32,816 nucleotides of DNA from a virus. Of the stretch, positions 1 to 31,595 are shown in pieces (the stretch's first letter is position 1; every line of letters begins with the position of its first letter). The position numbers and the translations under genes were made by a program. The notes under the pieces were generated by a model that searched no databases, was not told the origin of the DNA, and saw only the letters and a list, made by a program, of their open reading frames with translations. The stretch covers positions 1 through 32,816 of the IMG/VR virus record IMGVR_UViG_3300028844_001200; one strand, 5' to 3'.

Positions 1-231
1 ATGTTGAGAATCGAAAAAGCATATGTTCGACCAAAACTAAATTCAACCGAATATCAAACACTTAGAAAAAACTTGAACAAAAAGGTAAAAATAAATGGAA
101 CTTTTTGCTCTAGAACTTGTCTAAACATAGGGAGGCTTAAGAAATATAAGACTTCCTTAAAGAAGTCTATAGTATACACCTTCTCGCTGAGAAGCTCGAA
201 GGCGGAACGAGAGAAGGTGTTAAATACTTAA
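1..231 (+). CDS. Doubtful small basic ORF at window edge
   Basis: An open frame of 76 codons begins with ATG at the first base of the window, so its true start could lie upstream. The product is rich in Lys, Arg and Asn and has no motif I recognise; two Cys lie near residues 36-40. No ribosome binding site can be judged. Its last third (149-231) overlaps two stable hairpins of the array described separately, which argues that at least the 3' part is a non-coding leader. It could be the 3' end of an upstream gene or chance. Low confidence. Confidence 0.2.
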   Translation: MLRIEKAYVRPKLNSTEYQTLRKNLNKKVKINGTFCSRTCLNIGRLKKYKTSLKKSIVYTFSLRSSKAEREKVLNT

Positions 232-310
232 TCTCTCTCTACCCTAAGGGTCCGAGAGAGATAGAGCACCGAATAGCGGTGCTCTTAAGCGCCCGGAGAG
301 AACGGGCGCT
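149..310 (+). other. Array of five consecutive RNA hairpins
   Basis: Five stem-loops follow each other almost without spacing. Stem 1: AGACTTC 149-155 with 162-168. Stem 2: ACACCTTCTC 176-185 with 211-220, extended by 171-175 with 224-228 across a 3-nt bulge. Stem 3: ATCTCTCTC 231-239 with 254-262, with an inner ACCC/GGGT helix. Stem 4: AGAGCACCG 263-271 with 277-285. Stem 5: AGCGCCCG 288-295 with 303-310. None is followed by a T-run, so they are not standard intrinsic terminators. In stem 2, CTTCTC 180-185 can instead pair with GAGAAG 189-194, giving two mutually exclusive folds. Plausible roles are terminators for a phage polymerase, RNase III processing sites, or a structured RNA. All stems are perfect over 7-10 bp; the function is inference. 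Confidence 0.75.
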
Positions 311-759: not shown

Positions 760-764
760 AGTGT

Positions 765-827
765 GGTCGGCCCGGACCCCTGCAAGCAGTTGAAGCTGCC
801 TCTCAATAGGGACAACCGGGTTCGACC
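765..827 (+). other. Nested stem-loop between genes
   Basis: A long interrupted hairpin fills the gap before the small terminase gene: GGTCG 765-769 with CGACC 823-827, CCCGG 771-775 with CCGGG 816-820, CCCT 778-781 with AGGG 808-811, and apical GCAG 786-789 with CTGC 796-799. There is no T-run after it, and its descending arm ends directly before an ATG at 828 that is probably not used. The GGTTCGA-like 3' arm resembles a tRNA T-arm, but no acceptor/anticodon cloverleaf fits. It may be a processing site, attenuator or translational control element. Confidence 0.6.
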
Positions 828-835
828 ATGCGCCC

Positions 836-841
836 TAAAGG
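836..841 (+). promoter_or_regulatory. Ribosome binding site deciding start at 849
   Basis: AAAGGA lies seven bases before the ATG at 849 and downstream of the in-frame ATG at 828. It favours 849 as the true start of the small terminase gene. Confidence 0.65.
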
Positions 842-848
842 AAACAAT

Positions 849-1382
849 ATGCCACTAGCAAAGAATACAATAGTAGATGGGGCTGACGCGTACAAGCAGC
901 TCAAAGATTCGATGGGACGTTTCCGTACCCTCTCTTTGTTTGTCGAAAACAAGATAGACAAATACCCAGCCCCGTTTACGCTTAAAGACTATGACCACCG
1001 AGGAGCCATGTCAATGTACCTCAAGTACATGGAGATAGCTGATCCAACTGAGTACTCTCAAGCAATAGCTCTTTTAGGCTCTTGGAGACATTGGCAAGTA
1101 CTCTCTAACGCAGAGTGGTTCAAACCAACATTAGAACGATGGAGAGCTGAGTTGCAAACTAAGTTTGAATCAGATCGGTACAGAGAGATGATGGAGGTAG
1201 CTGACAAGGCTAAGGGCACACCACAAGGTGTGAGCGCCACTAAGTGGCTAGCAGAGAGATACTCTAGTGTGACTAAGCTCAAGAGAGGACGACCCTCTAA
1301 AGCAGAGAAGGCAACTAACCTAAGAGAAGAATCAAAAGAAGAAAAGCTCTTAGCTGAAGAAGCTAGTAGGTTAGGCATTTGA
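849..1382 (+). CDS. Probable terminase small subunit
   Basis: The 177-residue product is largely helical and charged, with a KRGRPSK motif near the C-terminus followed by a Glu/Lys-rich tail, as in small terminase subunits of T7-like and marine podoviruses. The small subunit binds the DNA concatemer and loads the large subunit during packaging. I prefer the ATG at 849 to the upstream in-frame ATG at 828 because of the Shine-Dalgarno AAAGGA at 836-841 and because 828 abuts the hairpin. The gene overlaps the next one by 4 bases. It is separated from the large subunit by three adsorption or surface genes, which is unusual. The call rests on size, composition, the basic motif and context; no DNA-binding domain is certain by eye. 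Confidence 0.6.
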   Translation: MPLAKNTIVDGADAYKQLKDSMGRFRTLSLFVENKIDKYPAPFTLKDYDHRGAMSMYLKYMEIADPTEYSQAIALLGSWRHWQVLSNAEWFKPTLERWRAELQTKFESDRYREMMEVADKAKGTPQGVSATKWLAERYSSVTKLKRGRPSKAEKATNLREESKEEKLLAEEASRLGI

Positions 1383-12935: not shown

Positions 12936-12967
12936 GGAACCCCCACCTTCGGGTGGGGGAACCTTTT
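12936..12967 (+). terminator. Intrinsic terminator with UUCG tetraloop
   Basis: CCCCCACC (12940-12947) pairs with GGTGGGGG (12952-12959) around a TTCG loop. GG 12936-12937 can pair with CC 12962-12963 across an AA/AA internal loop, and TTTT follows at 12964-12967. It lies just after the capsid genes, the same place as the T7 T-phi terminator, and would reduce expression of downstream tail genes relative to capsid. Confidence 0.88.
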
Positions 12968-13228: not shown

Positions 13229-13250
13229 GGGCTAGGATGTCTAGCCCTTT
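13229..13250 (+). terminator. Second intrinsic terminator
   Basis: GGGCTAG (13229-13235) pairs perfectly with CTAGCCC (13241-13247) around a GATGT loop, followed by TTT and then CCCTTT. It stands seven bases after the stop of the 79-residue protein and upstream of the HNH gene. The T-tract is short and broken, so termination may be partial. Confidence 0.75.
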
Positions 13251-29496: not shown

Positions 29497-29736
29497 TCAA
29501 CGGTCCTTGCCTCCTTTGCGCCTGTCGTTGGCGAATGACTTTATTGGTTTGGGATCAGGTATGGCCCCATGTAGTAAGTCAAACGGATCCTTAGCCTTGT
29601 CCAGTATAGGGACAGACTTCCATATAGTCCGTCCGGGTTTATCACACACTGGGCAGCTAGTCACAGGGTCACCAGACCGCCTCAGCTCCTCGTACTCAGC
29701 CGCACAGCTTGTACACCTAACGTCGTATTTATTCAT
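29497..29736 (-). CDS. FmdB-like zinc ribbon protein
   Basis: The 79-residue product has a zinc ribbon made of CTSC (8-11) and CPVC (28-31) with the spacing of FmdB-type small regulators, then a hydrophilic tail with DPFDLLHGAIPDPKPIKSF and a basic end. It is the last gene of the leftward group and its ATG overlaps the ribonucleotide reductase stop (ATGA). A DNA-binding, regulatory or metal role is possible; the sequence does not decide. Confidence 0.75.
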   Translation of the reverse strand: MNKYDVRCTSCAAEYEELRRSGDPVTSCPVCDKPGRTIWKSVPILDKAKDPFDLLHGAIPDPKPIKSFANDRRKGGKDR

Positions 29737-31595
29737 AATTCACACTGACCAGCGTGACACGCTAGCTCCTGCGACGACGTTGTGCTATCGAGCAACTCCT
29801 CAAACTCAAGGTCGATAGTTGGCATAGCCTTGAGTTGCGCTTGATACATACCCTTGTCGATTGATTCGTATGGCGCTTGCTGATAGCTATGTTCATCTTT
29901 CGGAAAGAACGAGACTCCTGACATAATGTTAAAGTTATCATATACCCAAGCTCCTACTTGTAACCATTCATCTTCACCTACGTAGATTGACACGCTGGGT
30001 TTGTGCTCACACCAGCTCTCAGCGTACACCTTCCATAGCTCTAGTTGTTCTATTGCTGACCTGTCATCAATGGTAACGCTACCCTTGGGTGACTTCATAG
30101 GGAAAGAGAATACCATAGAGTTAGGGTTCATTACATCTACTTCATGGGGCACACCTTGATCCATCAGGACTTGGCAGATCGGATCTTTAATGTCGTTACG
30201 CACCCTCCTAGTATAGTACTCCGAGTAGCGGGGATGTATACCGGACGAAGACCCGACGAGTTGAGACACTGTGCCACTCGGTTTGACGCAGGTAATGGCT
30301 GCGGATGCAGCGATACCCAGCTTCTTAGCCCACTTCTTATTGACTTCAATTGCATGATCTCTTAACCTCTCTAGTAATTCAGCACACTGTACGTTGTTAA
30401 GAAGAGGTGAGTCCATGATGCCAGTTAAGCTCACACCTAGCAACCTCTCCTCTTCACAGTTGTCTTGCCACTTCTTACCTAAGTATCTGAAGTTAGTGAA
30501 GCTAGATTGCAGAGTACCTAGTACGGTAGCCAGCCTGACCTTGCGTCTAAGGGACTCTTCTGTGTCGTTAGACCTAGCTACTACCTCAGTCAAGTTGCAG
30601 AACTGACGAGGTCTTAGTACTATCTCGGAGCAAGGATTTGTACCCCAGTCGTGACCGGACTCTCTTCGATCAGGCAGGTTATCCTCAGCTGCACAACGGG
30701 AGAAGATGCCCCGTTCCCCCGACTTGGATTCAATGAGTGAGGTCCACTCTTTAAGGAACACTCCAACATCTGGCTTCTCCGTGTAACAGACTGAGTTGTT
30801 AGCGAGTGCTCGTTGTGGCTCAGTGAGATACCATTGACCAGACTTAGCAGAGCGATGACGTTCACTAGTGAGATTACCAAGACTTATAAGAGCAGACCTA
30901 CGCACACCACCTGCAACAATGACTTCAGCGATCTTACAGACGAGGTCGTGACATTCGATCTCATTTAGTTTCCTTCCTTTGGCGTTCTTAAAGAGATTGA
31001 CAGTGTAGTTGCAGAGTTGAACAAGGGGTTCTGGCCCACTGGCGCGACCCCCAAACGTAGCCAACCGAGAACCAGCGGGTCGTAGGCTGGAGTAGTCAAG
31101 GGAGGGAACAAGTCCGTCATATAGCAACGAGATAAGTTTTCTATAAGCTGTTGCCCATCCGATCCTTGAATCAGCAACATGGAGTGTGGTCGTTCCATCG
31201 TCAAAGAACTCATTCGCGATCTCCGGTAGTTTCTCAATTGCTCGTCTTTCGACAGAGAAGCCGACACCAGTGCCGCACATAAGAATGTACATGATCTCAT
31301 CGAACGCTCTCCTGTCATCTATTGGTATGTAGGCACAGTTGTACCCAGCTACATTGTCTCGTTCCATAGCTGAACCAGCTGTCATCAGTGCCCTCATGCT
31401 AGGCATTACTTCGTGGTTAACGATAGCATTGTAAAGCTCACGCATCGTGGATTCACTGATTGCATCCTGTTCAGTAACATACTCCACGTACCGCATGACA
31501 GTCTCTTCCCATGTCTCCCTTCGCTTCTCGCTTGGGATATATCTAGCGTATCTTGATTTGTGTATATAGTTAGCGTAAGCTGTTTCATTTCTCAT
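29733..31595 (-). CDS. nrdJ: Class II ribonucleotide reductase, monomeric, B12-dependent
   Basis: The 620-residue product reduces ribonucleotides to deoxyribonucleotides using adenosylcobalamin. All key cysteines of the Lactobacillus-type monomeric enzyme are visible: Cys87 (YNCAYIP) and Cys333 (FCNLTEV) as the active-site pair, Cys322 in NPCSEI (320-325) as thiyl radical site with Glu324, and Cys613/Cys618 (CHAGQC) as the C-terminal shuttle. PSGT in the VKPSGTVSQLVG segment marks the barrel. No N-terminal ATP cone is seen. It is about 120 residues shorter than the 739-residue L. leichmannii enzyme, a compact form common in marine phages. The start is coupled to the 49-residue gene (ATGA). 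It recycles host nucleotides for phage DNA and implies that the host has or imports B12. Confidence 0.93.
   Translation of the reverse strand: MRNETAYANYIHKSRYARYIPSEKRRETWEETVMRYVEYVTEQDAISESTMRELYNAIVNHEVMPSMRALMTAGSAMERDNVAGYNCAYIPIDDRRAFDEIMYILMCGTGVGFSVERRAIEKLPEIANEFFDDGTTTLHVADSRIGWATAYRKLISLLYDGLVPSLDYSSLRPAGSRLATFGGRASGPEPLVQLCNYTVNLFKNAKGRKLNEIECHDLVCKIAEVIVAGGVRRSALISLGNLTSERHRSAKSGQWYLTEPQRALANNSVCYTEKPDVGVFLKEWTSLIESKSGERGIFSRCAAEDNLPDRRESGHDWGTNPCSEIVLRPRQFCNLTEVVARSNDTEESLRRKVRLATVLGTLQSSFTNFRYLGKKWQDNCEEERLLGVSLTGIMDSPLLNNVQCAELLERLRDHAIEVNKKWAKKLGIAASAAITCVKPSGTVSQLVGSSSGIHPRYSEYYTRRVRNDIKDPICQVLMDQGVPHEVDVMNPNSMVFSFPMKSPKGSVTIDDRSAIEQLELWKVYAESWCEHKPSVSIYVGEDEWLQVGAWVYDNFNIMSGVSFFPKDEHSYQQAPYESIDKGMYQAQLKAMPTIDLEFEELLDSTTSSQELACHAGQCEL

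Follow-up and report, generated by a model that had tools for sequence, protein, structure and literature searches.

The window analyzed here is a 32.8-kb (32,816-nt) viral fragment from IMG/VR. Its terminase is nearest to those of Roseobacter, Lentibacter and other Zobellviridae phages (~55% identity), and the cultured relatives closest to it by terminase are the cobaviruses/Siovirus (SIO1, ICBM1-3, P12053L and CRP-4; about 55-57% identity). All genes from position 382 to about 29.8 kb are oriented rightward, and the replication genes run leftward at the right end of the window. A B12-type ribonucleotide reductase gene (29733-31595, minus strand) adjoins the gene for the exonuclease subunit of DNA polymerase. 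Perfect hairpins follow the major capsid gene at 12940-12959 and 13229-13247; the second is followed by a T-rich tail and is a possible terminator. The features discussed below lie at the left end of the window and are listed in Table 1.

Neither PHROG nor Pfam provided a family match for the product of the gene at 382. The open reading frame at 1-231 was rejected as a gene, as tblastn found no relative of it in the related loci and it matched no PHROG or Pfam entry. A blastn comparison of positions 1-1400 with cultured phages, a protein scan using the terS-like protein alone and a search for terS in bacterial genomes each returned nothing useful. tRNA genes sit between the promoter and terS in several relatives. 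Over the first codons of terS, L002, L004, L006, L007, L008, L010, L012 and L013 carry a CCCC-loop-GGGG hairpin that encodes the motif PxG; the window version (828-840) is degenerate.

Other elements lie upstream of the late promoter. A box, TTATCTCnnAGAAATGTTG, is conserved about 50-110 nt upstream of the promoter in relatives and occupies positions 1-10 here; the window starts within this box (ATGTTG), which may be the reason that the contig ends there. Clusters of DnaA-box-like sites, a possible replication origin, were seen upstream of the late promoter in L181 (16063-16194) and L308 (7-57). Dense perfect short palindromic hairpins with tiny spacers occur upstream of it in L323 (1-150), L318 (650-1400) and L010 (1392-1900).

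Table 1. Features of the left end of the window, together with the sigma factor gene of a relative.
Feature	Position	Strand	Description
Open reading frame, 76 aa	1..231	+	Spans the promoter and H1-H2
ECF/RpoE (sigma-E) type promoter	97..124	+	-35 GGAACTT (97-103), 15-nt spacer, -10 GTCTAA (119-124)
Predicted transcription start	130..133	+	6-9 nt past the -10, from the usual sigma-promoter spacing
Alternative 5'-terminal hairpin, GGGAGGCUUA...UAAGACUUCC	130..157	+	Mutually exclusive with H1
H1	149..168	+	149-155/162-168; 7 perfect bp, loop of 6
H2	171..228	+	176-185/211-220; 10 bp, 25-nt loop; 5-bp extension 171-175/224-228
H3	231..262	+	231-239/254-262; 9 bp, 14-nt loop; outer stem AUCUCUCUC/GAGAGAGAU
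H4	263..285	+	263-271/277-285; 9 bp, loop of 5; abuts H3
H5	288..310	+	288-295/303-310; 8 bp, loop of 7; 2 nt past H4
First gene of the predicted late transcript, 125 aa	382..759	+	Hydrophobic N-terminal stretch; AGGAG at 371-375
UUGAAG element, second conserved RNA hairpin	760..826	+	Covariance-model hit 777-808; directly upstream of the terS-like gene
Gene in small-terminase position (terS-like)	828..1382	+	phrog_8035; ATG at 849 a possible start
RpoE-like ECF sigma gene, in L174	1468-2031	-	Also in G015 and G049; cognate promoter type before late operon and DNA primase

A predicted sigma-E-type promoter precedes the late genes

Positions 97-124 carry the pair of motifs that marks an ECF/RpoE promoter, GGAACTT and GTCNAA about 15-17 nt apart. 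They match GGAACTTTT-N11-TTGTCTAA exactly, and nothing else in the window comes within 3 mismatches of it. For sigma-E, the motifs published are GGAACTTTT at -35 and GTCAAA at -10 (PMC1804206). Compared with bacterial sigma-E promoters such as those of rybB and micA (PMC1804206), the phage element has the same -35 GGAACTTTT, a GTCNAA -10 and ECF spacing. In contrast to them, its -10 is GTCTAA instead of GTCAAA (one base changed), its predicted targets are the late and replication genes of phages, and in at least 3 related records the sigma factor is encoded by the phage.

Conservation of the promoter was measured in 108 terL/terS-derived loci (1.04 Mb), which were fetched by means of their terminase proteins, without use of the promoter. 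The pattern GAACTT-N(8-24)-GTCTAA was found in 12 unique sequences at a spacer of 15, in 1 at a spacer of 16 and in none at the other 15 spacers. Across 2.9 million viral contigs, GAACTTTT-N-TTGTCTAATA likewise favoured one spacer, with 39 hits at N=11 compared to 1-13 at other spacers, and the N11 form, GAACTTTT-N11-TTGTCTAATA, is common to relatives upstream of the late block. The reversed pattern, used as a control, failed to match in ten phage genomes that carry one to four promoter copies each. The promoter lies upstream of terS or the late block in L002, L006, L008, L010, L012, L025, L318, L323 and L329, and in 5 of 5 genomes (L181-L185) a second copy lies between the CobT-like and DNA primase genes, heading the replication genes (the L184 copy has one mismatch). 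Besides L002 and L004, the pattern AAACAGTTGAAGCTGTC gave chance hits in coding sequence. Twelve named Zobellviridae lacked the exact promoter, and their one-mismatch hits were at control level; thus, the promoter marks a clade of uncultured relatives. We found no ECF-controlled late promoters in Zobellviridae described in the literature. From the match and its positional conservation, both computed, we infer that the promoter is used.

More than 100 viral contigs (e.g. IMGVR_UViG_3300007960_000002) contain a related pattern, GGAACTTT-N12-TTGTCTAA, several of them many times over; promoters of the sigma-E type may be common among phages.

Relatives also supply candidates for the cognate sigma factor. 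G005 encodes a 187-aa RpoE-like sigma with Sigma70_r2 and r4_2 domains, which is 96% identical in G015 and 47% identical in G049. In G003, G014, G034 and G047 the promoter was present and no sigma gene was detected, suggesting that a host sigma may serve there. The window is a fragment that does not include the region corresponding to the sigma gene; the sigma factor acting in the window phage is presumed to be of the RpoE type.

ECF sigma factors are known from phiEco32 and its relatives (PMC7881722), a paper that also cites evidence for binding of the phiEco32 sigma to E. coli RNA polymerase. These phiEco32-type podoviruses (Kuravirus) are likewise of podovirus type with an ECF sigma factor of their own. 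However, that paper describes the phiEco32 type as an outlier subgroup, whereas the phages considered here are Zobellviridae-like, with a sigma that looks like a canonical RpoE and a promoter of canonical sigma-E type. The cobaviruses/Siovirus belong to the same family as the window phage; SIO1, the type phage of the group, is likewise reported to be without an RNA polymerase of its own, and PMC6775973 mentions no leader element such as that described below.

Five stable hairpins follow the promoter

The hairpins begin about 17-20 nt downstream of the predicted late promoter. A preliminary description of the region had noted five stems of 7-10 bp at 149-310, forming a dense, non-random array before the late operon. 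All five are present at these positions. The segment 140-320 had a minimum free energy (MFE) of -80.2 kcal/mol, whereas 200 dinucleotide shuffles gave -45 +/- 4.3 (z -8.2) and never did as well. Positions 149-310 folded at -78.8, compared to an average of -38.4 (sd 7.9) for 162-nt stretches sampled on both strands; nowhere else in the window was this value reached, which makes these positions its most stable segment of that length. With a stem of at least 7 and a loop of 3-15, a definition that excludes H2 by its loop length, 23 perfect hairpins were listed in the whole 32.8 kb; 4 independent ones fall within 149-310, compared to ~1 per stretch elsewhere.

The probability of formation of H2 to H5 was near 1 in every context tested, with pair probabilities of at least 0.98 for H2. 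H1 can also be read as 10-nt arms of 90% complementarity. The loop of H3 holds a further ACCC/GGGU hairpin, so that the apical part is ACCC-UAA-GGGU, with a conserved core at 242-254 and an internal loop of U and CC. The suggestion that this might be an undescribed structured RNA was a fair one: Rfam gave nothing at the curated gathering score across the whole window, a permissive search of positions 1-900 gave three weak unrelated hits, none of them convincing, and among the leaders of relatives only a tRNA matched.

An attenuator-like switch had also been proposed, in which 180-185 would pair with either 189-194 or 211-216. Although the alternative pairing is present in the sequence, its equilibrium probability was 0.0; the local fold of 180-185 with 189-194 reached -5.2 kcal/mol, compared to -18.3 for H2. 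Since the two folds are not of comparable stability, we rejected an attenuator or riboswitch-like switch at 180-216. The better-supported competition in our folding models is that between H1 and the 5'-terminal hairpin at 130-157, with the predicted outcome decided by 1-2 nt of start site. Over 128-170, the MFE was -10.9 for the 5'-terminal hairpin versus -8.2 for H1. For an RNA starting at or before 131 the 5'-terminal hairpin was predicted to dominate (p 0.60-0.97), and for one starting at or after 132 it was H1 (p 0.61-0.998).

It is improbable that the array is an RNase III processing region. Several stems follow one another, and end-to-end stacking of H3 on H4 is conceivable, but perfect stems of 7-10 bp are short for RNase III; the longest perfect stem here is 10 bp, and no relative has a long duplex at this place. 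More improbable still is a terminator, or a stack of terminators, that ends upstream transcription. The stems are stable, and one weak terminator-like site lies on the minus strand (168-149), but the plus strand of 1-1400 contains no G+C-rich stem followed by a T-run, in agreement with the absence of T-runs noted earlier, and on this ground a terminator stack was rejected. Furthermore, the array lies downstream of the late promoter and is conserved with it. The related proposal of a stack that stops a phage polymerase did not hold up for the same reason of position, and because SIO1 is reported to have no RNA polymerase (PMC6775973). A search of eight related records turned up no T7-type polymerase, a weak result given that control genomes gave no match either. 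Taken together, the position of the hairpins downstream of a sigma-E-type promoter indicates that they are most likely the 5' leader of a ~29-kb late transcript, rather than a terminator.

H3-type hairpins recur in the leaders of relatives

The H3-type core, U-CCCUARRGGG-UC (searched as CCC-UARR-GGG-UCSG), had 27 matches in 3.09 Mb of fetched loci. In 22 of these cases, representing eight distinct leaders, an ECF promoter on the same strand preceded the core by no more than 160 nt. The pattern was composed after most leaders had been seen; L037, which was outside the set used to write it, also matches, and bears two such hairpins in tandem. The sequence of the outer stem differs in nearly every leader, and its pairing covaries: among six distinct leaders, 32 of 36 pairs form and a position shows as many as five pair types, as counted on a hand alignment and not with a covariance model (MAFFT set the hairpins out of register). 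When the 3' arms were permuted, 1 of 720 arrangements reached 32 pairs, namely the true pairing alone.

The whole shape, sought on both strands of 6.25 Mb, retrieved 17 distinct sequences, five of them in ECF leaders, and the combined promoter-plus-core pattern retrieved L002 and L323 together with three chance hits from all viral contigs. H3 is missing from about half of the leaders (L308, L317, L322, L325, L329 and L331), and L010 carries the type only inverted. In L002 and L312 the minimum-energy fold favours a different pairing of the H3 region. H1, H2, H4 and H5 had no detectable homologues in relatives. The compensatory base changes on which the preliminary description had staked its proposal were therefore found for H3, and the other four hairpins had no homologues to compare.

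H3 of the window combines the core, a stem that covaries and a place downstream of an ECF promoter. Together, the promoter position, the covariation and the kept core suggest that H3 is probably a functional RNA element of the late leader. It is probably also bound by something specific, either RNA polymerase or a phage or host protein.

A second conserved hairpin lies before terS

In the UUGAAG element the loop, UUGAAG, is invariant; the lower stem is closed by an A-U pair, and there is a bulge of 3 nt on the 3' side. Seven pairs are changed on both sides among seven relatives, and the covariation score was 0.454, compared to 0.145 for shuffles and 0.06-0.13 for slid controls. A model built without the window found 777-808 of the window (E 0.077 in 0.92 Mb) and L309 (E 0.073); these were its only new hits, and both were at the expected place. 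The model gave no match in loci of cultured Zobellviridae. The element is present in the window and in L002, L004, L006, L309, L312, L317, L324 and L331, and is not in Rfam.

Interpretation of the leader

With a probability that we estimate at roughly two in three, the late transcript of this Zobellviridae-like phage opens with the array as a structured 5' leader, transcribed from an ECF promoter and with H3 as its conserved part. Under this interpretation, host RNA polymerase with an RpoE-like ECF sigma, phage-encoded in some relatives, would initiate at about 130-133 and transcribe ~29 kb of packaging, capsid and tail genes rightward from the promoter at 97-124, and the nascent leader would fold immediately into the row of hairpins. 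H3 would consist of a recognised apical part and internal loop atop a freely varying stem, and H2, H4 and H5 would be the window phage's own additions, extending the structured block. We infer that the leader most likely keeps the late mRNA productive, be it by sealing of the 5' end, by a put-like modification or by serving as a protein or translation site.

For the first of these, in analogy to ompA, the hairpins may shield the long late mRNA from RNase E and pyrophosphohydrolase, a possibility that we place below even odds. Structure in the leader begins at its predicted first bases, and 5' stem-loops are reported to stabilise the recA and vacA mRNAs, as multiple hairpins do the puf operon (PMC7509114). 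Stabilisation of the ompA type involves a stem at the extreme 5' end, which is predicted for the window if transcription starts at or before 131. Fifteen leaders were folded (an alignment of the leaders of four relatives was too divergent for folding). Most exceeded shuffles in structure, above all in their first 100 nt. Of 12 non-redundant leaders of relatives, nine either reached z <= -2.9 in the first 100 nt or formed a 5' hairpin of comparable stability. However, pairing of the 5' end across relatives was weakly above shuffles, at 7.70 versus a shuffled maximum of 7.49 over 100 nt, and was not significant over 50 nt. So small an excess weakens 5'-end sealing as a shared function, and such a role needs no conserved apical sequence.

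A conserved apical sequence is what a protein-binding site would predict. H3 could be recognised by a protein or act in translational control, for example in autoregulation by a structural or packaging protein, a tentative reading that we consider somewhat unlikely. The apical core and internal loop are kept as the stem covaries, which is the usual pattern of RNA recognised by protein, and a second element of this sort, the UUGAAG hairpin, precedes terS. Nevertheless, H3 is a candidate site that stands 120 nt ahead of the first start codon, and the predicted fold does not bury the ribosome site of the gene at 382.

The leader may instead act on the polymerase itself. In HK022, the putL site sits just past its promoter; its two stem-loops take up about 70 nt, and its effect extends over at least 10 kb with no need of a dedicated protein (PMC9378689). 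Readthrough of terminators in cis, by way of contact with the zinc-binding domain of the polymerase, is what characterises a put-like RNA. By analogy, the nascent hairpins of the window would bind RNA polymerase and cause it to ignore terminators across the late operon, which we consider unlikely. As with putRNA, a hairpin RNA directly follows the promoter of a long phage operon (~29 kb here); these hairpins include a conserved apical core, terminator-like sites do occur inside the late operon (e.g. 13229-13247), and the two tandem core hairpins of L037 recall the paired stems of put. In contrast, put is an early element with two defined stems, and the window has a late operon, five stems and a different sequence. 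The likeness is one of location and hairpins; most leaders have one core hairpin and about half have none, and the terminator-like sites are modestly above chance (22 versus 14.5 +/- 3.9).

More speculatively, and against the odds as we see them, the leader could represent a cis-acting phage RNA of a new family, modular in build and arrayed around an H3-type hairpin. Its target would be the polymerase or a phage regulator, and it would be coupled to an RpoE-like, partly phage-encoded sigma that switches on the replication and late genes. As far as we found, the H3 type and the UUGAAG element would be the first RNA elements described for these phages, and either could be a new antiterminator or protein-binding RNA. 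For the question of how late genes are controlled in those phages of this group that lack an RNA polymerase of their own, positionally conserved sigma-E-type promoters together with an RpoE-like sigma gene offer a direct and testable answer.
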